DNA from: Armigeres subalbatus
Lineage: Eukaryota > Arthropoda > Insecta > Diptera > Culicidae
Length of the DNA stretch: 64,000 nucleotides
Reading direction: 5' to 3'
Assembly (NCBI RefSeq): GCF_024139115.2
Contig: NW_026943218.1
Location: 57,922-121,921, forward strand
Of the stretch, positions 15,626-63,493 are shown in pieces. The notes under the pieces were generated by a model. That model ran no database searches. It was not told the DNA's origin and was given only the letters and a program-made list of their open reading frames with translations. Both the position numbers and the translations under genes were made by a program. The first letter of the stretch is position 1; every line of letters begins with the position of its first letter.

Positions 15626-17091
15626 TAAGGGTATGCGATAAAACACATTTTCCAAACGAAACGAAACGAAACGAAATTTAAAATATCTATGTTGATTCGA
15701 AACGAAACGAAACGAAATGTAGATTTACTTTCGAGACTTCGAAACGATACGAAATCAAGATCCGTTTAATTCGAAATTTTTCGAAACGAAACGAAATTTA
15801 ATTTTTTTTCCGCGGAATTTTGATTAAATTGGTTTTATATTATGTACGCAATTCTAATTTAATTTTTCCAAAGTCAAATAACTGCTTTGCGATCAATACA
15901 GTAATAGTAACAGAGGAAGCAGTCTGTGATAAATCGGCGCGTTCTTGTTTATATACCATTGGCGATAAGGCAATAACCCAGCATTTGTGTCGCTTCATCG
16001 TGGAGTGTGTACTCCCAAATCTGTTTAATTTTATATCAATTTTATATCACTTTATATAACAGGTATAAAGATATATTTTTTCCTTTCTCATACAATTTTT
16101 TTTATAAAAGGCTATCATTTCCTTCCAAATGCATCCGTTTTATGGGAGGATCGGAGACCCATATAGTCTTATACAAAATCAGCTCGATAAACTGAGCTAT
16201 TGTCTGTTTGTCCTTGTATATGTGTTTGTGCATATGAGGCATGTAAAAATTGTTGTCAAGCTTTCATCTCCAATAATCTAAATAATGTTGTGCTCTTCGT
16301 TGCAGACATAAGCTTCACGTGCTTCCACTCCCGCTGTATATTTCGATGATTTGCCGAATATTGTGGAGAATCTTCAATCCTCAAAAAATGTTATTCGTAC
16401 TATTCAGTGAGAATCGAATTGTTGTTTGAACGAGAAAAGATTGCATTTTGCTTTCCTAAGGGCCTTCTTAGCTCTTAAGCGGTGCTTACCCATTTGCTTA
16501 AACCTGGTTTGCAACCTAAGCGCAGGTGAAGCAATCGGCCTTTTATTAGAAAGAATCGGAATCCACGTCACAGTTTTTCCTCTTTGACAAAGTCAACAGA
16601 ATAATATCTGATTATATTTACACTCATCGCCTGACGTTTTAAATATTGATTCGTATCAGTTAGGATAGAATAGTTAAAGATACTTTTCGTTTTCTGTTAG
16701 ACATTTCTAACAAAACACTAAAGACTTTTTATAGAGAACTGAGAACTGATTGACTCAGAATGGGATTATGCAGTAAGCATTAATATAAAAATTTGTATAA
16801 CATAAAGTTTTGAAAACAGCTTTATGATTTTGTTCAGCGGCGCAGCCAAAATTTTTGATAATACCCGACCTTACAAAACAGTATGGTTGAGTTTAAATTT
16901 GTTTCGAAATTCCACAGAATTCCGTTAAATTTCGTTAAAAGCTAGTTTTTTCTAGCGAAATTTCTGAAATTTTACGAAACGAAACGAAACCAAGAAATCA
17001 GATTTCGCCATACTCAAATTCCGCGAAATTCCGCGGAATTTCGTTTCGAACCACCTGAAACGAAATTTTTCAATAATACCGCATATGCTTA
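15626..17091 (+). mobile_element. Copy A of the TAAGGGTATGCG family (hAT-like, LINE-free)
   Basis: The left end is TAAGGGTATGCGATA and the right end, inverted, is TAAGCATATGCGGTA; 12 of 15 bases agree. The flanks are the perfect 8-bp duplication CCCATACT (15618-15625 and 17092-17099). Subterminal CGAAA repeats occur near 15653-15800 and CGGAATT/ACGAAA repeats near 16905-17060. The 1466-bp body shares the left third of copies B-D and part of the right third, but has no LINE sequence. It has about 400 bp (16330-16720) not seen in the others. It is either a sister lineage without cargo or an internal-deletion derivative. No transposase ORF. Confidence 0.9.
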
Positions 17092-17099
17092 CCCATACT

Positions 17100-17412
17100 A
17101 ACAGTTCCAAAACTTCCCGAGACACCTAAGAGAGGTCATAGAGTTCTCTGCTACTTTCTTAAGTATAGGTGTCCAATTTTCACAACAATGATTTTTGGTA
17201 TTATTCCTTTGGTATTTTACCTCTTATGCAGGGCTAGTTCATAACAGAGTATGGTATCAATAACAGAATTAAGTATTATTGAGCCAATTTCTCCTGCTCG
17301 GGTGTTGCCCAAATCGGCATTTCCTGTTTGTCCTACCCACGACTCGGGACGTGGCTGCGCCTCTGGATGTTAGTATCGGTTTCGGAATAGAATTCAGACG
17401 ATCTAAACCGGA
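17100..17412 (+). other. Sequence upstream of the copia gag fragment
   Basis: From about 17274 on, the composition shifts to higher G+C and may be the leader of the copia-like element that follows. No LTR or primer-binding site could be identified. 17100-17273 shows nothing. Confidence 0.3.
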
Positions 17413-17757
17413 ATGGACGAGGAAAGGACACAGCGAGTATATCTTTTCGACGGTGCTAATTTTTCTAACTGGAGCTACAGGATGGAAGCCTATCTGGAAG
17501 AACTGGGTCCAGTGCATTGCATCCGGAAGAAATTGGAAGAAGAAGATTTTTTCGCTGAAGACGCGGCGGATAGTGCTGACATCAAGGCCCAAAAAGAACA
17601 AAAACGTGAACGATAGAAGCAAAAGGACGCAAAATGCAAATCCATAAACAAAATCGCGGATTCTCATTTGGATTTCATCAAAGGGTACACAACGCCGAAA
17701 GAGATTTGGTCCACACCAGTCCTGTTAGTCGACGACTTACAAGTTTTTCCGGGATGA
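17413..17757 (+). pseudogene. Ty1/copia-type Gag N-terminal fragment
   Basis: The frame opens with MDEERTQRVYLFDGANFSNW and continues YRMEAYLEELG, the typical start of insect copia Gag (an F-x-G-x-N-[FY]-x-x-W block followed by a capsid-like helix region). After a stop at 17614-17616 the same frame resumes with INKIADSHLDFIKGYTTPKEIW, also a copia Gag motif. It ends abruptly about 17757, with no zinc knuckle, protease, integrase or RT downstream. In the intact family Gag packages the element RNA in virus-like particles. This is a strongly truncated relic. Confidence 0.75.
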
Positions 17758-17859
17758 TTTTCTTGTTCAAGACACTACATTCTTTTTTCATACTTTTCTA
17801 GTTTTTTTTTTTTTTTTAAGAGGAGAAAGTAAAGTTAAGATTTTATTTATAGGATATCC

Positions 17860-18116
17860 CCTGTGTCATTACAATGTTGTGAAAACTCATGTGTGAATAT
17901 GCACATTATGTGGAAGATATTGATTAGGAAAATGTATTGAAGGTAACCACTTTCCCTTCGATGGGACTCGAACCCATGACCCTACAGTACGCTACACTGG
18001 TGCTTTAAGCAACTAAGCTACGAAGGACCTCCGTCGGCCTTCGCAACCTAGCGGCTACTGAATGAGCTCGAGATTCCCAAATTGGACGCATAGTCAGATG
18101 GAGGTCCATCGTATTT
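17860..18116 (-). mobile_element. tRNA-derived SINE
   Basis: On the reverse strand 18027-17954 folds as a 74-nt tRNA cloverleaf. It has a 7-bp acceptor stem (TCCTTCG with CGAAGGG), D arm, anticodon loop GTAGCGT, and T arm ATGGG-TTCGAGT-CCCAT, with A-box and B-box promoter words (TAGCTTAGTTG, GGTTCGAGTCC). A tRNA-unrelated tail follows (to about 17860). The tail and tRNA part recur at 25742-25853, so this is a dispersed SINE rather than a single-copy tRNA gene. It would be transcribed by RNA polymerase III. Confidence 0.75.
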
Positions 18117-25853: not shown

Positions 25854-26579
25854 TAAGCATATGCGGTATTTCGAAAAATTTCGTTTCAGGTGGTTCGAAA
25901 CGAAATTCCGCGGAATTTCGCGGAATTTGAGCATGGCGAAATCTGATTTCTTGATTTCGTTTCGTTTCGTAAAATTTCAAAAATTTCGCTAGAAAAAACT
26001 AGCTTCTAACGAAATTTAACGGAATTCCGCGGAATTTCGAAACAAATTTAAACTTAAACCAGACTTCATATTATCAAAAATTTTGGCTGCGCCGCTGAAC
26101 CAAATCCTAAAGTTGTTTTCAAAATTTACAAATACAAAATTTTCTATTAACGCTTACTACATAACCCCATTCTCAGTTGACAAATACGTATGTAACTTTC
26201 TTCTATAAAACGTCTTCAGTGAAACACTGATTCAAATTAAAAATTGGTGATAATTTTTTTACTATTTGCACAATATGAATCGATCGTGGGACGGCAGTTA
26301 GTCCGGGAGAACGCGAAGTGAAAAAAATCTACCTCGCGTAGCAGAAATTTGTTTAACTAGTGTGCAATAGATCGTGTTTATGCTAATCACGCCAGCTAGT
26401 GTTGGAGAACGCGAAGTGATAAAACTAATGTCTGCATCGAAGAGCACAACATTATTTAATGCGGAATCGATAGTGTTGTAAAAGCTTATTAAACGAAGTA
26501 CATTGATCTTGCGTTAGATTGATTTGCAACACAGTTTTCGTCTTCTTGTTTTCAAAATAACTCCGTTAAAATAAATAGT

Positions 26580-29345
26580 TATTTATTTATTTATCTTTCT
26601 CTTCAGTATTAACTGTACAGACTGGTTTAAAACTTATATGCTAACTAAAAATTTGCCTTAATCTAGTTTTGAATATCGTTCTGCTACAATTCAAATCGAA
26701 CCAATCAATGTCGTTGAGGAGGTTGAAGCAACGTTCAAGCGGATGATTTTGCCCAAACATTGTGAAGTGTCGGACAGACTGGAAGAGCTGACGTTGGCGG
26801 GAGCGACGGGCTGAACCTGAAAGTTAATTTGCTGCAAGAGCTCAGGGCAGTCCACGTGGTAGTTTATAATGTCAAATGCAAAAACCATCTGCAAATCTCC
26901 ACTTGTTGTCGAAGGGTTTCGAGTCGAATCGGTTGACATCGCTCTTCGTAGTGCGGTTAACTCAAAGGATTATTCCACGGAAATCGCCTGAGGGCAAAAC
27001 GAACGAAACGGCGTTGGACCCTTTCAATTCGCGTCATCTGGATTTCGTGATCTGCGTTCTGCATCTGGTAAAACTTATTGAGTTGCATTTCGTCGCATTT
27101 ATCTCCTTACCATTTAAACAACATCAGTTGGCTATGACATCAAGATCTTGTTGCAGCGCAAGACAATTGGTCAAAGATCGAATAATTCGAAATATTTTCA
27201 AATCATCGTTCACGAAGATGATGAAAATCAGCGGCCCTAGATGACTGCCTTGTGGTACTCCAGATGGCGTAGGATATGTATTGGATGAGGCAGTGCCTAA
27301 TTTAACGAAGAATGACCTACCAATCAGGTAAGAACGCAGCCAAAGGACAATCCAGTCAGGAAAACCCAAACGTTCAAATTTATTTAAAGTTAATCCGTGA
27401 GGAACTTTATCGAAAGTCTCCTAAAAGTCGATGTAAATGCTGTCAACTTGACATCTCTTCTCCAGGTTAGAATTCAGCATGCTAGTGTAGGTCATCAGGT
27501 TTGTTACAGTTGAGCGATTTCGTACAAAGCCATGTTGGTAATCAGAGTTAAGAAGGTCTGTCGAATCTGGGGGAGGGTTCGTATTGTACACCGACTTGAA
27601 AAAACTGCGAATAGTTCAGCAGATTCAGCGATATCATTTGATGTAACATCAGCAAAACTCACAGTGGATAACATAGCATGCGATTTTTTTCCTGGTTTCG
27701 ATGAAGCGCCAGAAAGCTGACGGGTTCGATTTAACTTCAATTTGTACATGGTGAACATACTCACGAAAGGTAGACAACACGAGATTTTCCTACTCCGGTT
27801 CAACGGTTCGCAGAAGAGCTCTGTTTGTCGCAGTCCGGTTACGGAAAAACCTGTGGTCGTTTTACGAAGTATGTTACGTCGATGCTGTAGTTCTGCATTC
27901 CACCAGAGTTGCATGTACGTTAGAGTGATTCAAATTTTCACTTTTTCGCTCCCCTATGCTTAAACGATGACATTTGCTGTTTTAATAATCCTCCTAAATT
28001 TTTAGCTGATTTGGATGCAACTAGACTGAGCACGAGCAGTTTGAAGTTTGTATGAAAATTACTATGAAAACAGTCACTTTCGTGGAAAACCGTTCCGTAA
28101 CGTTACTCATTAAGTTCTAAAAATATACGACTTTATTGGCAACATAGAAAATGTTGCAATGATGCGAAACGATTCTGTGCTTGTAAGAAAAGTAATTGGG
28201 GAAATACTGAATCGTGGTAAATTCAATTTAACACGTAAAAGAACAACATCAATATCAATAATGATCAATTTTGTTTTCTTTATAACATTGCTTACAAAAG
28301 TCAGATCACTTCGCAACAACAACTGTCCTATAACTAAGAAAGTATTCTATGAAGTCATCGGGTCGATTACATTTGAAAATTTGATGGGTTGCAACACGGA
28401 ACGGTCTTTTGCTTTAGTGACGATTTCTATAGTAATTTCCATACAAACTTCAAACTGCTTGTGCTTAGTCTAGTTACATCCAAATTAACTAAAAATTTAG
28501 GAGGATTAATAAAACAGCAAATGTCGTCGTTTAAGCATAGGGGAGCGAAAAAGTCAAAATTTGAATCACTCTAATGTACGTCCTCCGAGTTAAAGATCTA
28601 CGAAGAGGAACATACCTGCTTATCGTGTCGAGGACCGCGTTGTAGAATGTTGTAATCGAAATGTTAATATCGTCTCTACTAAGTATCTGGAACCAATCTA
28701 GTGAATTATTTAAGCTCGTTCTTCACAGCCTCGCAGTCACAGCGAGAGAAGTCAAAAACTAAATCCATTTCTTCTACAGAAGATTGGAGATGATGAACCG
28801 GGTTACGAAAGTCCAGGCGTAGAACGAACGGTTTGTGGTGGCGGTCAGGGCTTAAGATTGAATATGGTGTTTCAATAAGCACAGCTTCGTTACTGTCGCT
28901 TATAAATGTCAAGTCAAGAAGTCTTCCGTTCGAATTTGATACAATGCAGATTTGCTTCAAGCCACTAGCAATCAAAGTTTCAGTAAGAGTTAACTCCTGC
29001 TCGGAAGAAGCGTTGGTTGGCAAGTATCCTTCCACTTCGTCATCATATAACCATTTGAGCCTAGGAAGGTTGTCATCCCCAACTACGATTACGGTGTCAC
29101 ATAGGTTAGCTTTGTTGACGATTTTATTTGCACAGTCGGAATGCGCAACAAATTTATCGGGATCACTGTTCGGCCTCAAGCAAATGCCACTGATGTAAAC
29201 GGATGTATGGGTGAGCATAACCTTCACAACAACCTACTCAAGTGTTTCACTCTCCGAAAGATGAACCGACAAACTTGTCAGAGAGCATTTAACTGCGATG
29301 AGAGCTCCTCCACCTCGTTTAGTCGCTTACCAAAGGGCTTCACAT
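26580..29345 (-). pseudogene. LINE ORF2 remnant carried by copy B (AP endonuclease + RT)
   Basis: Reverse-strand order: an endonuclease-like block (29227-28706; SVYISGICLRPNSDPDKFVA-type start, VVGDDNLPRLKWLYDD, SSEQELTLTE, LLDLTFISD, DRHHKPFVLRLDF); a MITE insertion (28573-27921); a linker (27914-27504); RT palm (27369-27124: MGFPDWIVLWLRSYLIGRSF, SGVPQGSHLGPLIF); and a C-terminal block (26939-26691). A short in-frame deletion removes the residues just before the second Asp pair of the Y-A-D-D centre, so it cannot polymerise. The 3' end carries (ATAA)n-type short repeats at 26580-26593, usual for this LINE grade. Jockey superfamily is firm; the named family is unknown. Confidence 0.85.
27921..28573. 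mobile_element. 653-bp hAT-like foldback MITE with 8-bp duplication
   Basis: TIR TAGAGTGATTCAAATTTT continues inward with CGCTCCCCTATGCTTAAACG complementarity on both sides. The flanks are the perfect duplication ATGTACGT (27913-27920 and 28574-28581). The uninterrupted site is seen in copy C near 36150. It has no significant ORF. It was inserted into the LINE cargo after the cargo was acquired. Confidence 0.92.
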
Positions 29346-30417
29346 GAATTACCTTCTCAACTAACCAACGATTCCTTTCCCGTAGCGCTCACGGAGATGC
29401 AGAGCATTCCTCGGTCTCTTATAACAATGAGTGTTAAACTAATTTTCCGCTCCTAATCCTAAATTGACAGTAAGGAGCATCGTTAGGTATTGGTCATAAA
29501 TTGGAAACTCCAATAAGAATAACTTTTTTAATTGATAATTAATAAATTAATAATTTAATTTCATTTACCGAGAATATTATTTAATTGGTGAGCTGTGCAT
29601 ATTTGCTGTTTCTCGGCCAATCATGATTCGCAACTACGATGTTTACAGTTAATCAAGCTATTTGACTATTTGCACAATATGTAAGGAACATTGTAGATTT
29701 GTGGGCATTCCTAGATCTTCGCATAGAATTTGCAAAAAAAAATCCAGAACGGGTTGAAAGATCATTAAAATCAGCTCATACTGACCATAACAGTTGTTCT
29801 CATATGCCAAGGATACATAGACAATAGCTCAATACATCGAGCTGATTCTATATGAGGCTATGGGTCTGTGAAATTCGATCTGAAATACATATCTTTATGC
29901 ATTTTAGAAAAGTGCACAGGATTCTTCTAATGAGGAAAAGTATGTTTGATATATGCGGACGAATAAGAAGGAATAAGTTCTGGCTGTATACTTACTGATA
30001 TAAAACTGGTATAAAATTGGTCAGATTCGGGAGCACATGCTCCACGATGAATTCCTTTGAAAGCGGCAGAAATGCTGGGGTATTGCCTTATCGCCGATTT
30101 ACCACATGCGGCGACTTATGACAGACTGCCTCTTCTGTTGTCATAACTTTGTTAGTCGCAAAACTGTTATTTGACTTCAAAAAAGTGAAATCAGAAATGC
30201 GTACATAATGTAAAACCAATTTAATTAAAATTCCGCGGAAAAAAATTGTTCCGTTTTAAAAAAATTCGAAATAAATGAACCTTAATTTCATATCGTTTCG
30301 AAGTGTCAAAAGTAAATCTATACTTCGTTACGTTTCGATCCGAATCAGCGTAGACATTTTAAATTTCGTTTCGTTTCGTTAGGAAAAAGGGTGTTATCGC
30401 ATACCCTTACTGGTCCT

Positions 30418-43074: not shown

Positions 43075-43395
43075 CTCTGCCCTTCCGTTAGGGGACGCTA
43101 GCATTCCTCATTGTTTTTTTGTTTTTCATTTTGCCAACTTTTTTGCCTTTAATTTTAGTTTTCCTCAATGTGCCATTTTTTTTTTGCCCCTTTCTTGTCA
43201 CCCGGCCTACTCCTCTGCCCTTCCGTCAGGGAGCCTACCGGAGACCGCTAGCATTCCTCATAGTTTTTTTTTTGTTTTTTTATTTTGCCAACTTTTTTGC
43301 CTTTAATTTTTGTTTTCCTCAATGTGCCAACTTTTTTTTTGCACCTTTCTTGTCACCCTTCCGTCAGGGAGCCTACCGGGGACGCTAGCATTTTT
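43075..43395 (+). repeat. Tandem duplication of a pyrimidine-rich block
   Basis: GCCCTTCCGTxAGGG..ACGCTAGCATTCCTCAT with ATTTTGCCAACTTTTTTGCC and TTTTCCTCAATGTGCCA occurs in two full copies and one partial copy, spaced about 160-175 bp. It lies inside the LTR element next to its 5' LTR. Confidence 0.75.
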
Positions 43396-47040: not shown

Positions 47041-47042
47041 TA

Positions 47043-49273: not shown

Positions 49274-49375
49274 TGAATTAGTAAGGGTATGCGATAACAC
49301 ACTTTTTCCTAACGAAACGAAACGAAACGAAATTTAAAATGTATGTGTTGATTCGGATCGAAACGAAACGAAATA

Positions 49376-50665
49376 AGGTACACTGGGGGAAGTGGAAAAG
49401 GAAAAATCGATAGTGCATGTTTGAATTAGTGTAAAACCAGTTTAAATGATTTAAATGCGTTCAATCAAAATGGGCTATCAAAAACAGTCAATTTTGCACC
49501 AACTATGCGGTAATTCATACCATTTTGGTCGCTTGAAATTTATGGAAATAGATTTTAAAATTAGGAGTTGTTTTTCCACTTACCCTAGTGGGATGGGGTA
49601 AGTGGAAAACCCATGTTGCCTTGACCTTCAATAGTGATGAGTAGTTACATATAACTAAAATCAATACGATAATTGCTCTGAGTATCTTTTGTGGAATAAT
49701 TTCATTACCTTAAAGGAATAGATCCTCAAGGAATTCTCGTAATAGCTAGGGGAGGGCTGGTTTTGCCTTTTCGGACACTAAGTGTACGTAAAGTTTATAT
49801 GTTCGCCTCAAAGATGAACATTTTAAAGGAAAAATGGGACTTACAGGGTTATAAACTAATCAACTTAGTTTAACGAATTGAGATGATGTCTGTATGTGCG
49901 TATTTGTATGTATGTGTGTGCGCAAAGCACGTACAAAATTATCAGCTATTCTTAAGCACTTGTCTTTGACCAATTTGTTCGCAAAAAAATGCATTCAACG
50001 GCGAAACTTGTTAGGAATAAAAATAAATGTGAATTATACAATATATTTACCTATCAGTGCTATTTTTAACTTTCTTATATATTTTTTTCATATGGAAAAC
50101 ATGTGAAAGGCATCAGTACCGATAGGTGGATTAATCAGGCATTTTCTCATTTATATGAGTCCAATCACCACTGGAATCACAATGATAACAAAGAAGGAAC
50201 ATATTAAGATTCACAGCTATCGAAATAAACCCTGGAGGGAAGAAAAAATTGCGTAATTAGAACATTATCCACTTCCCCCGCAGTGTTTGATACCTGGGGT
50301 AAGTGTAAAATCTTTTAATTATTCGCTTTCTTGATACGGACCACTACCAATTGAATGGGATTAGTTTAATTGTATTGTAATGGTCACCTGTGATATAAAT
50401 TCACTTGAAAAAAGAACAAATGGTGCAAATAAGAATTAATTTTATGAATGCAAATATCAATTTTTCGCGAAACCTAAAATTACAGTTCAAGCGTTAACCG
50501 TGTTAGTGTATGTGTTATACAAATTTCAACATAGTATTAGTGTGAGCATTAAAGTATAACATTGCATGATGCTATGATGTGGTAAAAATTGTAAAGTATG
50601 TACAATTCCAATTTTCGAGTCGATTTTTACACTTACCCCCTTTTTCCACTTCCCCCAGTGTACCT
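49376..50665. mobile_element. 1.29-kb MITE with TA duplication, GGGGGAAG-type ends
   Basis: The ends AGGTACACTGGGGGAAGTGG and its exact inverse are flanked by TA (49374-49375 and 50666-50667). The copy C sequence at 34190 shows the empty site. A TGCCTTTCTCG-type repeat copy (about 49762-50150) is nested inside. No transposase frame. Confidence 0.92.
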
Positions 50666-51007
50666 TATAGATTTCTTTCGAGAACTCGAAACGATACGAA
50701 ATCAAGGTTCATTTAATTCGAAATTTTTTGAAACGAAACGAAATTTTAATTTTTTTTCCGCAGAATTTTTATTAAATTGGTTTTGTACGCAATTCTGATT
50801 TCACTTTTTCGAAGTCGAATAACTGTTTTGCGACCAAAAGAGTTATAATAACAGAAGAGGCAATCTGTGATAAATCACCACATTCTCACCGCATATACCA
50901 TTATTGGCGATAAGGCAATACCCCAACATTTGTGTCGCTTTCAAAGGAATTCATCGTGGAGCGTGTGCTCCCGAATCTGATCAATTTTATATCAGATTTA
51001 TATCAGT

Positions 51008-51610
51008 GTACTTGGGCTCATTGGTGACTGCCGAAAATGATATCAGCAGAGAAATTCAGAGACGCATAGTGGCTGGAAATCGTACATACTTTGGACTCCG
51101 CAACACGCTCCGATCGAATAGAGTTCGCCGCCGTACCAAACTGACAATCTACAAAACGCTCATTAGACCGGTAGTCCTCTACGGACACGAGACCTGGACG
51201 ATGCTCGTGGAGGACCAACGCGCACTCGGAGTTTTCGAAAAGAAAGTGCTGCATACCATCTATGGTGGGGTGCAGATGGCGGACGGTACGTGGAGGAGGC
51301 GAATGAACCACGAGTTGCATCAGCTGTTGGGAGAACCATCCATTGTCCACACCACGAAAATCTGTCGACGGCGGTGGGCCTGGCACGTAGCCAGAATGTC
51401 GGACAATAACCCGGTGAAAATGGTTCTCGACAACGATCTGACGGGCACAAGAAGGCGAAATGCGCAGCGGGCAAGGTGGATCGATCAGGTGGAAGATGAC
51501 TTGCGGACTTGGTTGGCGACGTGTAGCCATGGACCGAGTCGAATGGAGAAGACTCTTATGTACCGCACAGGCAACTTCGGCCTTAGTCTGAATAAATAAT
51601 AATAAAGTAA
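51008..51610 (+). pseudogene. 5'-truncated LINE with 10-bp target duplication
   Basis: A single open frame encodes only the end of a non-LTR RT: LGSLVTAENDISREIQRRIV, AGNRTYFGLRN, LIRPVVLYGHETWTM, EDQRALGVFEKKVLHTIYGG, WRRRMNHELHQLLGEPSI and RRWAWHVARMSDNNPVKM. The tail is AATAAATAATAATAAAGTAA. The duplication TTATATCAGT is at 50998-51007 and 51611-51620. The open frame over about 190 codons suggests recent insertion, although all catalytic residues lie in the missing 5' part. Confidence 0.88.
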
Positions 51611-52433
51611 TTATATCAGTAAGTATATAAAAATAAAGAAATTGTGAGATTTTTCGTATACGGATTCAAATTTCGTTTAAAACCTTAGTTCACTTAAGAA
51701 TTAGCGTGGTTTTACAGTATTGACTTAGTCAAAATTAGAAAATGAATGTCTAGATTTTTTTTATTTAGTGGGATACTCAATTATGTATCCTCATCTGCCA
51801 GGCTTATAAGCATATAGAGAATTGATATTACTGGATCAATATTTGAAAAGGACGTATCAGCCAAAATTTATTACTTCTTATTCTTTGTCTACATATATGG
51901 CATACATTTCCTCACTAGAAGAATCCTGTGCACCGTTCTAAAATGCACAAAGATATGTATTTCAGATTGAATTTCACAGACCCATAGTCTTATATACAAT
52001 CAGCTCGACAAACTAATCTATTGGGTGTCCTTGGCATATGAGAATAGCTGTTATGGTCAGTATGAGCTAAAAGCAATCATAAGTACTTAAAGAACTTTCA
52101 GAAATTTTAATGATCTTTCAAACCGTTCTGTATTTTTTTTTTGCAAATTCCATGCGAAGATCTCGAAATGCCCACAAATCTACAATGTTCCTTACATATT
52201 GTGCAAATAGTCAAAGAAGAGCTTAGCTTGATTGTATGTATACATCGTAGTTGCTAATCAAATAGTCAAAGAAGAGCTTATTAGCTTGATTAATTATACT
52301 ACACATCGTAGTTGCTAATCATGATTGGCCGAGAAAAACAAATATGCACAGCTCATTAATTAAATAATATTCTTGGGATACCAAAAAGTTTCACCTTAAA
52401 TTGATTTATTCTCTGCACAGTTCTCGTATTGTG

Positions 52434-52814
52434 TACACTGAAATCTAAAACTACCCAAAAGTGGATTGTTTGCACTCAAAACCGTGGTTTGGGCCAATAA
52501 CCCAAATTTGAGTAAAATGACTTTTCTGGCACTAGGTAGTTTGCCTTTAATCCCATGTAAACAATTTACCCAAAGCTGAGTTTAATTTATCCAAAGCGGA
52601 CCTTAATCAACCCAAAATTTAGAATATTGGATTTACTCAAATTTGGGTTATTGGGCTGAGCAACCTCGGTGAGGTGTTTGCATCTTGCTCTAGTTTTGAT
52701 AGCAATCATGGGAAAGAAAGGAAAACTACCCAAATTTGGGTAAATTTTCTCTGCGATATTCTCATGAGTGCGTATATTGAACTCAAAATTTGGGTTGATT
52801 TATCTGTCCGTGTA
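52434..52814. mobile_element. MITE rich in CCCAAATTTGGGT motifs
   Basis: The ends TACACTGAAATCTAAAACTA and, inverted, TACACGGACAGATAAATCAA are imperfect TIRs. The body repeats CAAATTTGGGTTA-like words in both orientations. The terminal TA may be the duplication. Non-coding. Confidence 0.6.
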
Positions 52815-52995
52815 GAAATTTCTGTTTCATTTGTATGGGAGTCCCCCTTTCCAAAGGAGGGTCTCGAAACATCTTAAGAACATTCCCTGGTCTCAAAAAC
52901 CTCTGCATACAAATTTTCACGCCGATCGGTTCAGTAGTTTCGGAGTCTATAAGGTTCAGACAGACAGAAATTCATTTTTATGTATATAGAAGAAG
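52815..52995 (+). repeat. Retroelement 3'-end-like fragment
   Basis: Contains TTTTCACGCCGATCGGTTCA, GTAGTTTCGGAGTCTATAAG and CAGACAGACAGAAAT, ending with an AGAAGAAGAAG run. I recall this word set as a very common dispersed mosquito repeat. No coding sequence and no proven boundary. Confidence 0.4.
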
Positions 52996-53051
52996 AAGAA
53001 GATTGCTTCGGAGTTTCCAATTCATGACCAATAACGATACTGGTCACGTGC

Positions 53052-53500
53052 TGTTCATTCTCAATGTATATCTATAGATTCGTGCCGAACCCACTTGATC
53101 TAGTACTACATTTGAGGTCGAGGTAGTAGTAGTAGTGCTAGAACAGAATGCTACATGATTTGAATCTGAGCTAGTTGTAGTAGATGATAAGTTTCTTTTT
53201 AACTGAATTTATCAAATAAAATCATTCCCTGTTAACCACTAGAAACCGATAGGTTGTCCAATATTGTATTCCCCCCATTTGTTGAGCAATAAAAGTGAGT
53301 TTCCGACAATATAAAAGTTTTTCGTGATAAGAAGAAGTGACGCCTAGTGGGACATAGCAGCAACTCTTTGAGCTTTGCATATAGTGAAGTAGTGCGTTAG
53401 CCAATACCACCACCCCCGCAGAGCATAGGGCAACTTTACAGCCAATGCCCAATTTATTGCCCAGAGGAATTTCACCGGAAATCGCGAACCTGCCCCAACA
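53052..53500 (+). repeat. BEL/Pao 5' LTR (449 bp)
   Basis: TG...CA ends. It contains GTAGTAGTAGTAGTGCTAGA and, towards the end, AGTGACGCCTAGTGGGACAT. A TATA-like TATAAAAG at 53310 could begin transcription. An AATAAAATC at 53214 may be an upstream poly(A)-type word. Confidence 0.93.
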
Positions 53501-53503
53501 TAT

Positions 53504-53521
53504 TGGTGCCGTGACCAGGAT
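53504..53521 (+). other. BEL/Pao primer-binding site
   Basis: TGGTGCCGTGACCAGGAT starts three bases after the LTR. The position and the TGG start (complement of tRNA CCA) are diagnostic for the minus-strand primer. The exact tRNA was not determined. Confidence 0.8.
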
Positions 53522-54108
53522 AAGGTTTCCATTCCGCCATCGTGTTCGTGATCCAAATCAAGCCAAGCGCCATAGTGAGAAGACTTCGCTATTGAATTTC
53601 CGCCATCGTTTTCGGGCAACAAACCGCCATTCCTCCCAAGACGATTTCAGAGTGCAAAATTGTTCCCGTTGATCCTGATTTTGAAAAATACAAGGCCTGT
53701 TCTAATCAGGCACACGGTACGTGTGATTCCATTGTGCGCAGGATTATCCGCGGGTACCTTGAGATTTGTTTCTGATTTTCATTCCAAGTGACTCCGTCCA
53801 TCCATCGAGGATTTCCGTTGCCGAAGAGAAGTGCTATTGTCCGTTTCCCGCCATTGAGAGTGCTACCGATTGTCGAGAAACCTACCCGAAAGATCCAGTA
53901 ATCCGTCTTGCTGAGTTGGCCAGCAATACGTACGTTCCCGTTACCGGAGGTGCATTATATAAAATACAAGGCATTATCCTAGCCTTGAAAAGGTTAGTAG
54001 TATTCCAACCTCCCTACTCCGTTTGTCCGGCTCTACCGGGTCTTTTCTGTGTTCTTTTGTCTAGAACCGCCATTTTGTTACGCCGTAACCCACGCCGGAT
54101 CTCGCGCC

Positions 54109-57100
54109 ATGGACGAGGAACGCAAGCAGCAGTTAATCAACCGTCGGACGGCCCTCATGACCTCGCTAGGAAGAGCTGAACAGTTCGCATCGAAATACCA
54201 AGCCAATCGAGACCAAGCCCAACTGCCACTTCGAATCGAGAACCTAGATAGCATGTGGATGGGACTGGAGGAAGTACAGACGCAGTTAGAGGAGTGTGAA
54301 ACCACCGATGAAGGTAGGGAACAGAACAACCAAACCCGTGCCAAGTTCGAATCCATTTTCTTCAAAGTAAAGGCTGCTCTACGATCCCTATTACCCGCCA
54401 ATAATACCCAAAATCCAAGCGCAATCCCTAACCCCGCTGCAAATGCACTAGCTGGCATCAAGCTCCCCACCATTTCGTTGCCAGAGTTCGATGGCGATTA
54501 TAATCAATGGCTGGCTTTCCATGATACCTTTGTCGCCCTCATTCACTCCAATGTTGATGTTCCCGAAGTTCAAAAGTTTCATTATCTCCGTGCCGCTTTG
54601 AAGGGAGAAGCCGCCCAGTTAATTGAATCAATTGCAATTAGCACTGCCAACTATATCGTTGCTTGGCAAGCATTGACTTCGCGCTACGCAAACGACTACT
54701 TGCTCAAAAAACGTCATTTGCAAGCACTACTAGATTGCCCCCGCATGATGAGAGAATCTGCAGAAGCATTGCATAGTCTGGTTGATGAATTCCAACGCCA
54801 TACCAAAATTCTTCGTCAACTTGGAGAGCCCGTAGACCAATGGAGCACGATGCTCGAACACTTGCTTTGCATTCGCCTTGACGATGGGACCCTCAAGGCA
54901 TGGGAAGATTTCGCTACCACCGTCGATGAACCAAATTACGCTCGCCTCGTCGATTTTCTACAACGTAGAATTCGAGTTCTTGAGTCGATGTCCGTCAACC
55001 ACCAGTCGCACAATTCGCCAATGCCAGTAAGCCATTTCCCCTCCAATCGCAGACCGTTTTTCCCAAGAGTTGCCTCCCACACTCTCGCTGAAGAACAACA
55101 GCCTAAATGCTATGCCTGTAGCCAGTATCATTTTCTCGTCAAATGCCCTCGATTTGAAAGAATGAACGTTGCAGACCGTATGAAACTGATCGATACTAAT
55201 CGCCTTTGTGCGAATTGTTTCCGCCACGATCACTTTGCTCGAAACTGTCAGTCCAAATACTCCTGTCGACACTGCCAAAGAAGACATCATACCATGCTGC
55301 ACAATGTCAACAGCTTCAATGAATCATCCTTTCAACCACCTGCACAACGCCCCGCCAATCAAGCTACTCATCAAGCCAGACCGTCATCGAGTCAAAACAA
55401 TACTCCATTCACAACGACTACCTACACATGCGCCAATTCCTCTTCTCAAAGTAGCAACCCATCACCGTTATCAAACTCAAATGTGCTACTTTCCACCGTC
55501 GTGCTGCTAGTCGTCGATTCAAATGGATCCACTCACCCTGCACGCGCCCTGCTAGATAGCGGCTCTCAATCCAACATAATGAGCGAGAGATTGTGTCAGC
55601 TACTGAAGCTAAAACGACGAGCAGTGAATATTCCTGTTCATGGTGTGGGGGAATCAGCTTCCAATGTAAGACACAGCGTGCACTCGGTCATAAAATCCAG
55701 AAAGAACGATTTTGCAATGGATTTGGATTTTTTGGTTCTCCCAAGAGTCACTATTGACCTCCCCGCCGTCACATTCTCGGCCCAGAATTGGCGTATACCA
55801 CAAGATTTATTCTTGGCCGATCCCAGCTTCAATAAATCTGGAGCAATTGACTTGCTACTAGGTGCGGAACATTTCTATTCCTTCGTCAACCCTGGTACGA
55901 GAATTGAGCAAGATCAGCAGCATTTGCTTGTCGAAAGTGTTTTTGGATGGATTGTCGTTGGTAGAAACCTAATTTCACCCGTCGTTGAACCCGTTGCCTG
56001 TCACGTGTCCGTATCAGATCCCCTCCATGATGCAATTGAGCGCTTCTGGAAAATGGAAGAGATCAATAACAAACCAAACTATTCCGTCGAAGAACAGCAA
56101 TGCGAGACACATTTCGTAGAGAATGTTACCCGAAATTCTGAAGGAAGATATATGGTGCGTCTTCCCCGCCATCCCGATTTCGATCACATGCTGGGTGAAA
56201 CGAAAGCTGTTGCCATGCGCCAATACCATTCCCTGGAGAAACGCTTGGAGCGCGATCCGAACCTGAAGCAGGAATACCAAAACTTTCTCGACGAGTATCT
56301 ATCGTTAGGCCACCTTCGAATTGTTTCTGCGAATGAACCCGAGCCGCCACAGGTCTCCTACATTCCACACCATCCCGTCGTGAAGGAGTCAAGCACCACC
56401 ACAAAAGTCCGTGTGGTATTCAACGGATCGGTACACTCCACTACCGGATTTTCCCTGAACGATACCCTAAAAGTTGGTCCAGTAGTGCAAGACGAATTAC
56501 TCACCCTAATTATTCGTTTTCGCAAGTACCCTGTTGCACTCGTCGCTGACATCGAGAAAATGTACCGTCAAGTACTGGTCGACCCAAGAGACACCCCTCT
56601 GCAAAGAATATTTTGGCGTTTTCAACCCGATGGCCCCATTGAAACGTGCGAATTGTTAACCGTAACGTACGGTTTGGCGTCTTCGTCTTTTCTTGCCACT
56701 CGCACCCTAAACCAATTGTGTCAAGATGAAGGAGACAACTTTCCGCTCGGAGGACCAGCCCTGATCAAAAATTTCTATGTCGACGACTATATAGGTGGTG
56801 CCCAATCCATCGGCGAAGCAATCAATACCAGGACTGAATTGAATGAGCTGCTTGTGAAAGGCGGTTTTCAGCTCCGCAAATGGGCATCCAACGTTCCGCG
56901 GGCACTAGAAGGTCTAGATCCATCCCAAATTGAATCTAAAGCGTTCCTGAATCTCGATACAGAAAAAGCAATCAAAACTCTAGGCGTTAGATGGGAACCC
57001 AAACCAGATAAATTAAGCTTTGAAATCGCTTCCATCAATCCTACTAGCGCTACAACGAAAAGGACGATTCTAGCTGGTGTATCCACGCATTTCGACCCGC

Positions 57101-57672
57101 TTGGTATTACTTCTCCAGTCGTCATTCGTGCGAAAATACTCCTGCAAGAGCTGTGGCTGCAACCGTGTGGGTGGGATGACGAAATTTCTGATCCTGCCAA
57201 CGAGAAGTGGACATCCTACTGTTCCGATTTGGCAAAGCTATCCTCTTATGCAGTTGACCGATATGTTTTTCTTCCAAACTCTACCTACGAGCTTCACACG
57301 TTCGCTGATGCGTCTGAGCAAGCATACGGCGCTTGCACCTTTGCCAGGTCGATTTCCTCCAAAGGCCAGATCCGTGTTCATCTGATAGCTGCAAAATCCA
57401 GAGTCGCTCCCCTCAAACGTCTATCGATACCAAGGTTGGAATTATCAGCTGCCGTACTCGCCGCCAGATTGCACGCAAAAATCCTCGAAGCTCTCGATAT
57501 GGCCATATCGGCATCCTACTTTGGTCCGATTCATCAGTTACCCTCGAGTGGTTACGTTCTCCTCCGCATATTTGGAAAACCTTCATCGCCAACCGAGTAT
57601 CTGAGATCCAAACCACCACCCACGGATCGCAGTGGAACCACGTCGCAGGAACCCATAATCCAGCTGACCTGA
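54109..57672 (+). CDS. BEL/Pao Gag-Pro-RT-RNase H polyprotein (frame ends early)
   Basis: The start at 54109 (MDEERKQQL) is chosen because it has a CCATGG context and begins the conserved Gag; the frame is open 20 codons further up. Order in residues: Gag of DUF1759 type about 10-290, three Cys/His knuckle-like groups (C334-x2-C, C367-x2-C-x9-C380, C386-x2-C), aspartic protease LLDSGSQSNIM with the catalytic Asp 483, RT about 730-950 with LVADIEKMY and FYVDDYIGG (Y-V-D-D at 890-893), and RNase H FADASEQAYGA near 1065. After about residue 1138 the frame leaves homology, because of a one-base frameshift near 57520. Pol continues in the next frame. Confidence 0.93.
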   Translation: MDEERKQQLINRRTALMTSLGRAEQFASKYQANRDQAQLPLRIENLDSMWMGLEEVQTQLEECETTDEGREQNNQTRAKFESIFFKVKAALRSLLPANNTQNPSAIPNPAANALAGIKLPTISLPEFDGDYNQWLAFHDTFVALIHSNVDVPEVQKFHYLRAALKGEAAQLIESIAISTANYIVAWQALTSRYANDYLLKKRHLQALLDCPRMMRESAEALHSLVDEFQRHTKILRQLGEPVDQWSTMLEHLLCIRLDDGTLKAWEDFATTVDEPNYARLVDFLQRRIRVLESMSVNHQSHNSPMPVSHFPSNRRPFFPRVASHTLAEEQQPKCYACSQYHFLVKCPRFERMNVADRMKLIDTNRLCANCFRHDHFARNCQSKYSCRHCQRRHHTMLHNVNSFNESSFQPPAQRPANQATHQARPSSSQNNTPFTTTTYTCANSSSQSSNPSPLSNSNVLLSTVVLLVVDSNGSTHPARALLDSGSQSNIMSERLCQLLKLKRRAVNIPVHGVGESASNVRHSVHSVIKSRKNDFAMDLDFLVLPRVTIDLPAVTFSAQNWRIPQDLFLADPSFNKSGAIDLLLGAEHFYSFVNPGTRIEQDQQHLLVESVFGWIVVGRNLISPVVEPVACHVSVSDPLHDAIERFWKMEEINNKPNYSVEEQQCETHFVENVTRNSEGRYMVRLPRHPDFDHMLGETKAVAMRQYHSLEKRLERDPNLKQEYQNFLDEYLSLGHLRIVSANEPEPPQVSYIPHHPVVKESSTTTKVRVVFNGSVHSTTGFSLNDTLKVGPVVQDELLTLIIRFRKYPVALVADIEKMYRQVLVDPRDTPLQRIFWRFQPDGPIETCELLTVTYGLASSSFLATRTLNQLCQDEGDNFPLGGPALIKNFYVDDYIGGAQSIGEAINTRTELNELLVKGGFQLRKWASNVPRALEGLDPSQIESKAFLNLDTEKAIKTLGVRWEPKPDKLSFEIASINPTSATTKRTILAGVSTHFDPLGITSPVVIRAKILLQELWLQPCGWDDEISDPANEKWTSYCSDLAKLSSYAVDRYVFLPNSTYELHTFADASEQAYGACTFARSISSKGQIRVHLIAAKSRVAPLKRLSIPRLELSAAVLAARLHAKILEALDMAISASYFGPIHQLPSSGYVLLRIFGKPSSPTEYLRSKPPPTDRSGTTSQEPIIQLT

Positions 57673-59369
57673 TAACGAGAGGAATGAAAGTAGATGAATT
57701 TCTGAGCAGTGATCTTTGGCAACACGGTCCATTCTGGCTTAGTCTGCATAGGGAAAACTGGCCAACAACAACCAATGCGAACAACCATTCCGATGAAGTT
57801 TTGGAGCGACGCGTCATGGTGGCGGCCGTTCAAAATCGGCCAACCGTAAACGACATTTTCTTGCGAACCACATCCTACCAACGACTGCTCCGTATAACGG
57901 CCTACTGCCTACGGTTTATCAATGCCTGCCGTCAACGAGAATCATCCGATCGACCAGAAGGAAGCACCGTACTCACCGTAGAGGAATTGTCCATGTCTCG
58001 CAAGAAGCTGGTGAAATTGGCCCAAGCCGATTCGTTTGGTGAAGAGATTAGGGAATTGGGTAGAGGGAAAACAGTTTCGAAACGGTCGAATTTGCGCCTA
58101 TTGAGTCCATTTCTTGATTCAGATGGAATCATTCGAGTCGGGGGTAGACTAAATCTATCTGAGCAGCCTTACCACACGAAGCATCCAATCCTACTTCCCA
58201 GTTCCCATCCTTTCACACGTTCTGTTGCTATCGATTACCACAACAAACTGTTGCATGGTGGCGGCCGTGTAACATTAGCAGAAATGCGGCAAGAATACTG
58301 GCCGATTCAGGGGCGAAGGTTGATGAACAGCATCATGCGTAATTGTTTTCGATGCATTCGAGCATCTCCAATACCAGCAACACAACAAACAGGACAACTA
58401 CCGCAGCGAAGAATAACACCAAGCAAGCCTTTCACCGTCACCTGCGTTGATTACGCTGGCCCAGTGTACCTTAAACCAGCACATAAGCGAGCATCCGCTA
58501 TCAAAGCATACATTTGTGTTTTCGTGTGCTTTGCAACAAAAGCAGTTCACATCGAACTGGTTAGCAGCCTTTCTACCGCTGCCTTCATAGCAGCATTGCG
58601 ACGATTCGTTTCTCGCCGTGGTCGACCGACTCATATGTACTCCGACAACGGCAAGAATTTCGAGGGAGCACGCAACGAATTAAGGGAGCTGCACCAATTA
58701 CTTCTGCGTGAGAGACAATCAGGAGAAATTGCTACCATTTGTGCGACCGACGGAATCAAATGGCACATGATACCACCGAAAGCACCACACTTCGGTGGCC
58801 TATGGGAGGCGGCTGTTAAAACGGCAAAGAAGCACCTGCGCAAACAACTCGGCAACATCGCACTATCCTTCGAGGACATGAGCACTATTCTGGCGCAGAT
58901 TGAGGCCTGCATGAACTCGAGGCCTCTTACACCGATGACTGAAATTCCGGACGATTTGGCGATTCTAACATCCTCGCATTTTCTTATCGAATCTTCCCTT
59001 TTCGCTTTGCCAGAAACTGACGTCACAATGATTCCGCTAAATCGTCTTGACCACTACCAGAAGCTTCAGGAACGAGTCCAAAAGTTCTGGTATCTTTGGC
59101 GCACTGACAATCTCCATGAATTGCAGAAAGAAACAAAACAATCAACTGCAATTACCGCCTACCAGCCTGGGAAAATGGTAATATTGGTAGATGAGTCTCT
59201 ACCACCTGTAAGATGGCCGCTAGCAAGAATAACTGCAACACACCCTGAAAGCGACGGATTAATCCGCGTCGTGACACTCCGGACCAGCAAAGGAATCATT
59301 CGAAGACCTATCACCAAGATATGCCTGCTACCGTACGATGATGCTGCACCTAAAAATGAAGATAATTAG
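57520..59369 (+). CDS. BEL/Pao end of RNase H, integrase and C-terminal domain (frameshifted part)
   Basis: The same polyprotein continues in another frame from about 57520. It starts with the WSDSSVTLEWL block of RNase H and ADLITRGM. Then come the integrase zinc-binding region (HNKLLHGGGR ... CFRC), and the core with catalytic D (CVDYAG, 58449), D (YSDNGKNFEG, 58644) and E (GLWEAAVK, 58806), spaced 64 and 53 residues. A C-terminal block (PGKMVILVDE, PVRWPLARI, ICLLPYDD) ends at a stop at 59369. All three integrase catalytic residues are present. As it stands this half has no start of its own, and the single frameshift is the only clear lesion. Confidence 0.92.
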
Positions 59370-59493
59370 TTAGAATCTCTAGAAATATTAATTAAAATCT
59401 CCGATCATAATTTTCGCATGTGCTCTCGCTGAATTTTGTAAACAATGAATTTGATGTAGCAATAGTAAAATCAGGGTTGAAATTAGGAATTTC

Positions 59494-59505
59494 AGGTGGC
59501 GGCGA
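59494..59505 (+). other. BEL/Pao polypurine tract
   Basis: AGGTGGCGGCGA immediately before the 3' LTR, at the expected site for plus-strand priming. Confidence 0.6.
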
Positions 59506-59730
59506 TGTTCATTCTCAATGTATATCTATAGATTCGTGCCGAACCCACTTGATCTAGTACTACATTTGAGGTCGAGGTAGTAGTAGTAGTGCTAGAACAG
59601 AATGCTACATGATTTGAATCTGAGCTAGTTGTAGTAGATGATAAGTTTCTTTTAACTGAATTTATCAAATAAAATCATTCCCTGTTAACCACTAGAAACC
59701 GATAGATTGTCCAATATTGTATTCCCCCCA
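59506..59730 (+). repeat. BEL/Pao 3' LTR, left half
   Basis: Matches 53052-53277 of the 5' LTR except for one missing T and one substitution. It stops at CCCCA where the nested element begins. Confidence 0.95.
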
Positions 59731-60272
59731 TGTTCGAGCGATGACGAAGTACCGGGGTAATAATTTATAACGAGAGAGATACTTTCCAGTTCACTATTTA
59801 TTCAAGACTAAACTATGTACATCAGCGTGTCCTATTTATATTCCACTCTTCCCTATTCTACTTCTAAGAACGTTCTAGAATTGTATTCAATTATTATTCG
59901 CTAAATCTATTGTGTGCAAGCTCTATTGTATACAAGCTGCTCGCCTATGCATAAAGTGTAACCTTGCTTGAATGTTCTAGAAACGTCAAGAACTATTATT
60001 CAATGTTTATAAACAATTTGAGTATCTCGAATGTACGATGGTAAGTAGTATAGAGTAATTTCTGTAATAATTCATTAGTAAACAGTATGTTTTCTTCTTT
60101 CTAGATACATTTTATGATGCTCCAGATGCGGAGTAAGGTATGAATGGAAAGGGTAAGTATTTCATGCAATTTTGGTGATGAATTGATGACTTGTTGGGGC
60201 CTCGGCATGAGAATGGCATCCACCGGGTCGATGCGAATAAATCACCCCGGTGGCTTGCTGATGGCCGCAACA
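59731..60272 (-). repeat. Nested element, 3' LTR
   Basis: 542 bp. Contains GGTAAGTAGTATAGAG and TTCTTTCTAG words resembling donor and acceptor, and ATAAATCACC near its end. The preceding purine tract, on the minus strand, is GGTGGGCGGAA (60283-60273). Confidence 0.93.
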
Positions 60273-61786
60273 TTCCGCCCACCAAATTGCGTATACAATT
60301 TGATGAAGATGCGCTGGACGTGGAAGATGATGATTATGATGACTACAATCGATAGGTTCAATTTTCCATGGTATTTTGGAAGTGGTGATTGTTGGTTTGG
60401 TGACAATGTTCGTTGTTGTTGCGATGACGTCAGCGCAAAGCTACGTTGATGAAAAGTGATGAGTAGTTGATGATGATCTCTGTGATGTTGGTGCCTGATG
60501 ATCCTTGTACCGCCCACCTTGAGCAATTGGCCTGACTTGACTAGTTGAAAGGGAATCCTATATTGAAGACGGTGATCTGTCCCCCATACTCTCCTTTGGA
60601 TGGAAGCGATGACTTGCGTGTTGTGGCTAAGGTGATTGATAACTCGTGCCGCCCACCATGCACGAATCATATACTTTGATGACGTAGCGTTGAACAGAAT
60701 TTGCTTAGGTTGTTTCTTTAGTGGTGATAATTGCCAATGTGTTGGAGTAAAGGTGTCTATCGATTTCAGTGGCCTGAAGACGACCGTTTTGGTGCATGAT
60801 TCATTCAGATGAATGCTTGGTGGTGATGAGAAGCGATTGTCCGTCGTGATGAATGAACGATTGATCTTGCTTCGCAGGGTCTGGTCCTGCGCTCCATTAG
60901 CGAATAGATATGCAAAATCTTCAGAGTATATCGATGAATGAAGAAGACGATGGTCGTTCGTGGTTCCATTATGTTGTTGCATTGTAGTAGTTATGTCGTT
61001 GAATTGATGAGTAGGCTCCGTTGCTTGAATTTCCGATGAATGTTGCTTGATTGTATGATAAGTGGTTGGATGGGATTGTGGCGAAAACTGTTGCTGGTCT
61101 TCACATCCCGATGGTTGCGATGGTTTGATGACGATTTCTGATGAAGGTTGTTTTACGATGTCTTCTTGAGTGATGTCTTCTTGTGGCGATTGGTTAAATG
61201 TTGGTGAAACGTGAGAGTTTGCTGTGTTCGCATCCTGAAGGCAGTAATTTTCAACCTTTACGGCAGTTGAAAATCGCTCCAGCGATGTATTGTGGTGCAT
61301 GGATATGTTGGGGGTTTGAAGGCAAACGTTGTTAGCTGCGTGTTGAGCGTTCGTATGCTTCGGCGGTGAGGGTTCCAAGGGTTGCTTGGTTGGTGCGCAT
61401 TGATGACGGGATCCGATAGTGTTGAACTTCGGATAAAGAAGGCATTGTTCGCCCGTGAGTCGTTGAACGGTGGTACTGGATTTCTCTTGATTTGCCATTG
61501 AATTCTGGGCCTCTCGAAGAATCCGTTTGATGGTTGCCTTAATCGTGTTTCTTTGTGCGTCAGCTTCGGTTAGCTCCTCGATGATACTGTCCAACTGGTT
61601 GTCGTCTTCACAGTAATCCAGTATTTTATCTTGCAGGGATTTGAATTCCTTCCACCAGCTTTCCAACTGATCCAATTCGGCGATCAGACTCCTGACAGAG
61701 CTTTCGTCGTTCATGTGACTAACTCGGACCTTGATGTCAGCAAACCGAACTTTCAGCATTTCACGTTTCTGTACTACTTGCTCCAT
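60273..61786 (-). CDS. Gag-like protein of the nested LTR element
   Basis: An open frame of 514 codons starts at 61786, 54 bp inside the 5' LTR, and runs to 60242, about 30 bp into the 3' LTR. The N-terminal 100 residues (MEQVVQKREMLKVRFADIKV, LIAELDQLESWWKEF, EELTEADAQRNTIKATIKRI) are charged and probably coiled-coil, resembling the N-terminal region of BEL/Pao Gag. The rest is Gln/His/Ser/Thr-rich and has no Cys/His knuckle or enzyme motif. It may contribute to packaging the element RNA in another element's particles. Function is inferred from position only. The frame is intact, in line with recent insertion. Confidence 0.6.
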
Positions 61787-61816
61787 TGTTTCACTAACTT
61801 CACTACACTACAATAA

Positions 61817-61834
61817 TCCTGTCTACAGCGCCAA
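61817..61834 (-). other. Nested element primer-binding site
   Basis: On the minus strand TTGGCGCTGTAGACAGGA starts five bases after the 5' LTR. It resembles the site of the BEL host element (TTGGTGCCGTGACCAGGA), supporting a BEL/Pao affiliation. Confidence 0.65.
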
Positions 61835-61839
61835 TTTAG

Positions 61840-62381
61840 TGTTCGAGCGATGACGAAGTACCGGGGTAATAATTTATAACGAGAGAGATACTTTCCAGTT
61901 CACTATTTATTCAAGACTAAACTATGTACATCAGCGTGTCCTATTTATATTCCACTCTTCCCTATTCTACTTCTAAGAACGTTCTAGAATTGTATTCAAT
62001 TATTATTCGCTAAATCTATTGTGTGCAAGCTCTATTGTATACAAGCTGCTCGCCTATGCATAAAGTGTAACCTTGCTTGAATGTTCTAGAAACGTCAAGA
62101 ACTATTATTCAATGTTTATAAACAATTTGAGTATCTCGAATGTACGATGGTAAGTAGTATAGAGTAATTTCTGTAATAATTCATTAGTAAACAGTATGTT
62201 TTCTTCTTTTTAGATACATTTTATGATGCTCCAGATGCGGAGTAAGGTATGAATGGAAAGGGTAAGTATTTCATGCAGTTTTGGTGATGAACTGATGACT
62301 TGTTGGGGCCTCGGCATGAGAATGGCATCCACCGGGTCGATGCGAATAAATCACCCCGGTGGATTGCTTATGGCCGCAACA
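61840..62381 (-). repeat. Nested element, 5' LTR
   Basis: 542 bp, 537 identical to 59731-60272. The five differences are near 60107, 60169, 60182, 60256 and 60261 of the other copy. Confidence 0.95.
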
Positions 62382-62386
62382 CCCCA

Positions 62387-62609
62387 TTTGTTGAGCAATA
62401 AAAGTGAGTTTCCGACAATATAAAAGTTTTTCGTGATAAGAAGAAGTGACGCCTAGTGGGACATAGCAGCAACTCTTTGAGCTTTGCATATAGTGAAGTA
62501 GTGCGTTGGCCAATACCACCACCCCCGCAGAGCATAGGGCAACTTGACAGCCAATGCCCAATTGATTGCCCAGAGGAATTTCACCGGAAATCGCGAACCT
62601 GCCCCAACA
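62387..62609 (+). repeat. BEL/Pao 3' LTR, right half
   Basis: Continues the LTR after the nested element (TTTGTTGAGCAATAAAAGTG) and ends CCCCAACA. It matches 53278-53500 except for three substitutions. The duplication CGTGC follows. Confidence 0.95.
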
Positions 62610-63493
62610 CGTGCTTATAATCAATTTGGAATTAGGAGAGGTAAATTAGTTTAATACTCATTGTCATAAGAGACCGAGGAATGCTCTGCATCTACGTGAG
62701 CGTTACGGGAAAGGAATCATTGGTTAGTTGAGAAGGTAATTCATTTGAAACCTCGTGGTAAGCGACAAAATATTTATTATGAACGAAGTTATTTTGAAAA
62801 CAAGAAGACAAAAACTGTGTTTTAAATCAATCCAACGCAAGATTAATGTGCTTCGTTCAATAATCTTCTACAACACGATTGATTCTGCACTAAATAATTT
62901 TGTGCTCTTTTATGCAGACATTGGTTTTATCACTTCGTGTTCTCCCACACTAGCTGGCGTGATCGATTGCACACTGGTTAAACAAATGTCTGCTACGCGA
63001 GGTAGATTTTTTTCACTTCGCGTTCTCCTGGACTAGCTGCCGTCTCATGACCAGCAGCAACACGATCGATTCCGCATTCATATTGTGCAAATAGTAAAAC
63101 AAATATCACAAAATTTAAATTTGAATCATGGAAACACTGAAGACGTTTTATAGAAGAAAACTACATACGTCTTTGTCGACTAAGAATGGGATTATGTAGT
63201 AAGCGTTAATAGAAAAATTTGTATAACCAACAGTTTTGAAAACAACTTTACGATTTTGTTTAGCGGCGCAGCCAAAATTTTTGATAATATAAAGTTTAAA
63301 TTTGTTTCGAAATTTCGCGGAATTCCGTTAAATTTCGTTAGAAGCTAGTTTTTTCTAACGAAATTTTTGTAATTTTACGAAACGAAACGAAATCAAGAAA
63401 TCAGATTTCGCCATGCTCAAATTCCGCGAAATTCCGCGGAATTTCGTTTCGAACCACCTGAAACGAAATTTTTCGAAATACCGCATATGCTTA
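62610..63493 (+). repeat. Right remainder of copy D
   Basis: 62640-62770 corresponds to 35400-35505 of copy C (start of the LINE cargo). Then an abrupt join leads to the sequence that follows the LINE tail in copy C (about 41300). It ends with the CCGCGGAATTTCGTTTCG subterminal block and TIR. Confidence 0.85.

Follow-up and report, generated by a model that had tools for sequence, protein, structure and literature searches.

A 64,000-nt stretch of Armigeres subalbatus contig NW_026943218.1, referred to here as the window, contains four copies of one transposon family at positions 15626..17091 (A), 25854..30409 (B), 34100..44349 (C) and 49282..63493 (D). Both ends are common to all the copies, as proposed in the initial annotation, whose coordinates were exact for all four. 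With the GGGTA end named as left, A, C and D lie on the plus strand and B on the minus strand. Each copy is bordered by its own perfect 8-bp duplication, as had also been claimed: CCCATACT for A, CTGGTCCT for B, CTTCCAGA for C and TGAATTAG for D. A chance 8-mer match was found between 116 of 2,000,000 random pairs of window positions, i.e., about 6e-5 per copy, and among the 12 mismatched pairings of left and right flanks the best agreed at just 4 of 8 bases. The left ends read TAAGGGTATGCG in all four copies, while the right ends read TAAGCATATGCG in three and TAAGCATATGTG in C. Allowing up to two mismatches, the window contains 10 matches to the end motif where 3.24 would be expected, and none of 100 shuffles gets to 10. 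Seven of these matches are copy ends; the eighth copy end (right of C) has three mismatches and falls outside the list.

Between the left and right ends of a copy, 12 of 15 bases agree in A, B and D, as first reported, and 11 of 15 in C, for which the earlier figure does not hold. Over the first 40 bases, only 14-16 are equal; hence, the terminal repeats are short. The interior is common to the copies as well, as observed in a pairwise BLAST comparison from whose output pieces below 40 bases were dropped (100 bases in a second similarity comparison). The copies span 1,466 bp (A), 4,556 bp (B), 10,250 bp (C) and 14,212 bp (D), and their summed span of 30,484 bp covers 47.6% of the window. The description of the family as almost half the window is therefore right for the span but not for its own sequence, which comes to 7,459 bp or about 11.7% when a retrotransposon passenger and the nested insertions are set aside. 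This leaves 1,466 bp in A, about 1.8 kb in B and about 2.1 kb each in C and D, the value for D being slightly undercounted as some family sequence beside a long terminal repeat (LTR) element was removed along with that element. Rather than the large transposon initially described, the family is a non-autonomous element of about 1.5-2.1 kb, of which B, C and D are swollen by nested insertions.

Across all six copy pairs, identity is 93.8-98.6% in the right-most 146 alignment columns and 87.4-97.0% in the left-most 100. Compared with D, B and C are 84-90% identical in four of six interior segments (the left arm, two middle segments and 3901-4100) and 90-95% in the right arm. The interior of A has diverged from the other copies, with 35-53% identity in three middle segments, where it is hardly alignable. 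Between B and C, the interior segments are 89.2-95.6% identical. If the ends alone are needed, they should be conserved while the interior is free to vary. Likewise, conserved ends are reported for short derivatives of BuT2, which keep 94 and 128 nt in one example (excerpt of PMC3942097). The arms of the copies are rich in CGAAAC/AAACGA repeats; every copy has 3-10 AAACGA motifs within its left 250 bp and 4-5 within its right 350 bp, where the window rate would give 0.42 per 250 bp, and AAACGG is found 0-1 times per copy in the arms. In maize Ds, a hAT element with 11-bp terminal repeats, the subterminal AAACGG repeats are bound by the Ac transposase (excerpt of PMC3260210). By analogy with Ac, the dense CGAAAC repeats of both arms are putative transposase-binding subterminal repeats, with a motif different from the AAACGG of Ds.

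B and C carry a 5′-truncated non-LTR retrotransposon with a TAAA-type tail. In B, it occupies 26581..29317 on the minus strand, with endonuclease and reverse-transcriptase (RT) pieces, and amounts to about 2.1 kb without an inner miniature inverted-repeat transposable element (MITE). In C, the same truncated element lies at 35507..41294 on the plus strand with the same junction, and amounts to about 2.95 kb without a foldback element; the 3′ limit is uncertain by a few bases in both. The passenger starts at the same base in B (window 29317) and C (35507) and ends in a GATAAATAAATAAATAA / TAAATAAATAA tail, whereas D is uninterrupted at this site, around 62769, where it reads GCGACAAAATATTTATT. 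Copy A has no retrotransposon homology. The passenger of C matches RVT_1 in the frame at 40140-40775 (E=9e-21, above the cut-off). For Exo_endo_phos_2, neither match (E=6e-4 in B, 0.055 in C) reaches the cut-off; the one in B is supported by an Armigeres protein of 84% identity that is listed as having this domain. Thus, both traits of the apurinic/apyrimidinic endonuclease (APE)-type non-LTR retrotransposons, the endonuclease and reverse-transcriptase domains, are present. Of 183 candidates, 57 are homologous to the RT piece of C, and all five of those with an organism in the listed name are from mosquitoes. The passenger homologues with a named organism come from Culex, Aedes, Toxorhynchites and Armigeres, and by this evidence the host is most likely a mosquito, probably a culicine. 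A match to DUF2726 in one antisense frame of B's passenger scored 23.6 bits, short of the cut-off of 24.7, and was regarded as fortuitous.

The junction cuts into the coding sequence of the passenger. The frame of B used for BLASTP was read from 22 codons upstream of the junction (226 residues), and its 84% similarity to the Armigeres subalbatus protein P0059 starts at residue 22, encoded by the last codon ahead of the junction. P0059 extends 54 residues upstream of that point; similarity to a second protein, P0062, starts at residue 23, and 80 residues of P0062 lie upstream. In tblastn with the Armigeres protein, the match starts at element position 1090 in B and 1405 in C, with no match in D or A at E<=1e-3. 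B and C share departures from P0059, for example GDDN for GDYN and KWLY for EWLY, as expected of one inherited insertion. Over the 1,980 sites present in both, the two passengers differ by 5.9% (94.1% identity), in an alignment made after the nested inserts and the parts found in C only (C 2316-2413, 2533-3106 and 6482-6722) had been removed. The passenger frame is interrupted in both copies by stops, frame changes or gaps.

Judged from sequence, the most likely history is that the retrotransposon piece entered the DNA transposon once and the composite then moved. Three features suggest uptake of the passenger: the junction that B and C have in common, the lack of an interruption at this site in D, and the point at which the protein homology starts. 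The duplications of B and C differ and their flanks are unrelated, the 300-bp flanks of the four copies having no mutual similarity at E up to 1e-3, which suggests that the DNA transposon jumped at least once with the passenger already in it. A transposase encoded outside the copies would have mobilised the family in trans; one lineage would have taken in the truncated retrotransposon; the composite would later have moved to at least one new site; and further nested insertions would have inflated B, C and D. On the whole, the copies probably represent one non-autonomous cut-and-paste family, most likely of the hAT superfamily, which was moved in trans and of which one lineage gained a passenger and then moved.

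hAT is the likeliest superfamily, though not proven. The terminal inverted repeats of hAT elements are 10-25 bp long (excerpt of PMC3942097); those described here are likewise short, though imperfect (11-12 of 15 bases). The 8-bp duplication, another hAT trait, is perfect in all four copies, and the ends start with TA. The hAT end motif is YARNG, with which the left end TAAGG agrees in every copy. With the duplication, the short repeats and the left end, hAT, as suggested earlier, is the best fit; it is not borne out by the right end or by a recognised transposase.

Several observations weigh against this history and assignment. The right end TAAGC departs from YARNG in all four copies, as it has no G at position 5. 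No transposase family was found at E<=1 in 18 stop-masked frames, six each of A, D 51611-52377 and D 62621-63493 (the interiors of B and C outside the passenger were not covered), which leaves the superfamily without direct proof. The weakest point is that no target-site duplication is recognisable around the passenger, so its insertion is deduced from its truncation and tail together with the uninterrupted site. Of the two passenger-free copies, only D shows this site, as A is not alignable there. In columns 1260-1368, the identity falls to 73% for B and D and 67% for C and D, in an alignment that is doubtful there. Between B and C, the ends (95.8% and 96.9%) are only slightly more similar than the passenger (94.1%). 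The evidence as a whole comes from only four copies in one window.

The claim that no transposase is visible in the copies holds for the 18 scanned frames of A and the two pieces of D, with the qualification that B and C do carry recognisable retrotransposon coding sequence. The longest open frame of the joined D core has 95 aa. Matches to PCYCGC (0.059), DUF5893 (0.035) and Zn_ribbon_TFIIS (0.48) in three frames of A were below the cut-off and were taken as chance. A 28-base piece of the right arm matched nothing among viral contigs, which says little about the family.

Several superfamilies other than hAT make duplications of about 8 bp, such as Zisupton/KDZ, Novosib, Merlin and the relatives of Mutator, and the family could belong to one of these or to an undescribed one. 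The unequal ends (TAAGGG and TAAGCA) and the want of a recognised transposase favour this, as does the fact that the literal element strings, when searched in full-text literature, matched only unrelated papers. Against it, the TA start, the short terminal repeats and the 8-bp duplication fit hAT without special assumptions, and the ends do not fit Merlin, whose ends start with GG. Such a placement is considered unlikely.

Slightly less likely again is a family of the P superfamily moved by a P-type transposase. In Anopheles gambiae, the 8-bp duplications of both P elements and P-MITEs are perfect, and the P-MITEs keep about 100 bp of the ends (excerpt of PMC1562414), with which the conserved right-most 146 columns may be compared. 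The P-MITEs are similar to the present family also in being non-autonomous elements of a mosquito. However, the terminal repeats of P are 27-31 bp long, with 6-8 mismatches in two clades (excerpt of PMC1562414), whereas end similarity is confined here to about 15 bases and only 14-16 of 40 match; this contrast in length is not absolute given the mismatches in the two clades. The copies also start with TA, unlike P elements, which start with CA. A bolder proposal, in which the composite forms a subfamily spreading genome-wide, with a dead retrotransposon fragment amplified by an undescribed transposase of a superfamily that is neither hAT nor P, is improbable.

The RT segment may instead be regarded as the family's own gene, in which case A and D would be internally deleted derivatives of an RT-encoding element with DNA-transposon ends. 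The RT does lie at the same place in B and C, each with its own duplication around the copy, and no target-site duplication flanks the segment itself. Nevertheless, the N end of the protein is cut at the junction while its relatives extend upstream, the segment closes with a retrotransposon-type tail, and its frame is interrupted in both copies. Moreover, D reads through exactly between the segment limits, which would be rare for a random deletion. This explanation is rejected on the truncation at the junction and is very improbable. It is hardly credible that B and C are products of segmental duplication and not of transposition: they are 3.7 kb apart in opposite orientation, but the similarity ends at or within about 5 bases of the element ends, the 300-bp flanks have nothing in common, and each copy has its own duplication.

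Under the favoured history of one hAT-like family with a captured passenger, the closest parallels are other non-autonomous or insertion-enlarged elements. Retrotransposon insertions inside hAT elements are documented in maize Ds: a Ds2 copy reaches 12.7 kb through LTR retrotransposon insertion, six of ten long Ds1 copies (0.8-24 kb) have LTR retrotransposons, and the authors regard size alone as unlikely to stop transposition (all from the excerpted part of PMC3260210). Ds and the present family are alike in being non-autonomous, with short terminal repeats, a repeated subterminal motif and copies enlarged by retrotransposons; unlike the LTR insertions of Ds, the passenger here is a non-LTR piece in two copies with different duplications. 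BuT2, a Drosophila hAT element of the Tip group, has 8-bp duplications and 12-bp terminal repeats, and one of its copies was enlarged by a likely mariner insertion (excerpt of PMC3942097). It resembles the present family in its duplications, short terminal repeats, conserved ends and insertion-enlarged copies, and differs in having a known transposase. Among mosquitoes, the m8bp MITEs of Aedes aegypti (TEfam) are a named class, whose label stands in a published table (excerpt of PMC3422177). These MITEs are similar to the present family in being non-autonomous mosquito elements, and differ from it in that the latter has 1.5-2.1 kb of family sequence and one lineage with a retrotransposon. The family may well stand already in Repbase, Dfam or TEfam. 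The m8bp label stands for the 8-bp duplication.

The four copies are a neat example, familiar in kind, of a retrotransposon carried by a DNA transposon, and nothing known is overturned by them. The locus offers an ordered chain of events, in which a retrotransposon piece would have entered a DNA transposon and later been carried by it; the order follows from the uninterrupted site, the shared junction and the independent duplications. Through nested insertions, a family of about 2 kb can resemble a transposon of 10-14 kb, which is relevant to the repeat libraries of large mosquito genomes.

Much of the non-family DNA in B, C and D bears an insertion signature of its own. The passenger of B holds a hAT-like MITE (27921..28573) with the ends TAGAGTG/CACTCTA and the 8-bp duplication ATGTACGT. 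The passenger of C holds the foldback element (37251..40078), with arms of about 1.27 kb at 93% identity, the 5-bp duplication AACTG and the ends CACAGTG, CACAGTGTTGC; we take it to be Transib-like by its end motif. CACAGTG is also the heptamer of the V(D)J recombination signals. Elsewhere in the window, a 128-aa open frame on the minus strand (3993-4379) matches the solved transposase chain 6pqn_A (E=1.3e-22), presumably HzTransib, so that a Transib transposase fragment and a CACAGTG-ended foldback element occur in the same window. C has two further inserts: one at 41632..43811, in which a degenerate AATCCA array (42039-42862) lies between direct repeats of about 290 bp, and one of 180 bp relative to B (43870..44049). 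The direct repeats are 93% identical, and the array region is strongly strand-asymmetric (GC skew -0.51 over 42001-44000).

D contains an element with terminal inverted repeats and a TA duplication (49376..50665), mariner/Tc1-like by that duplication, and a different retroposon 3′ fragment on the plus strand (51008..51610) with the 10-bp duplication TTATATCAGT and no Pfam match in frame. An LTR retrotransposon on the plus strand (53052..62609), with an integrase domain and the duplication CGTGC, is presumably of the BEL/Pao type. One of its LTRs holds a second LTR element (59731-62381; duplication CCCCA) of 2.65 kb, with 542-bp LTRs at 99.1% identity and a 521-aa frame that has no confident Pfam match. 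The LTR pairs of the two elements are 98.7-99.1% identical, and hence the insertions look recent.

Outside the four copies, an RT element (RVT_1, DUF6451) is present twice in opposite orientation, at 18679-20555 and 30490-32365, with 93.5% identity. Related 17-bp units of the GGTCATTTGGCCGAAAA type form three separate arrays (6964-7096, 33627-33784 and 48088-48400), and a tRNA-Ala (AGC) lies on the minus strand at 17953-18027, on which two methods agree.

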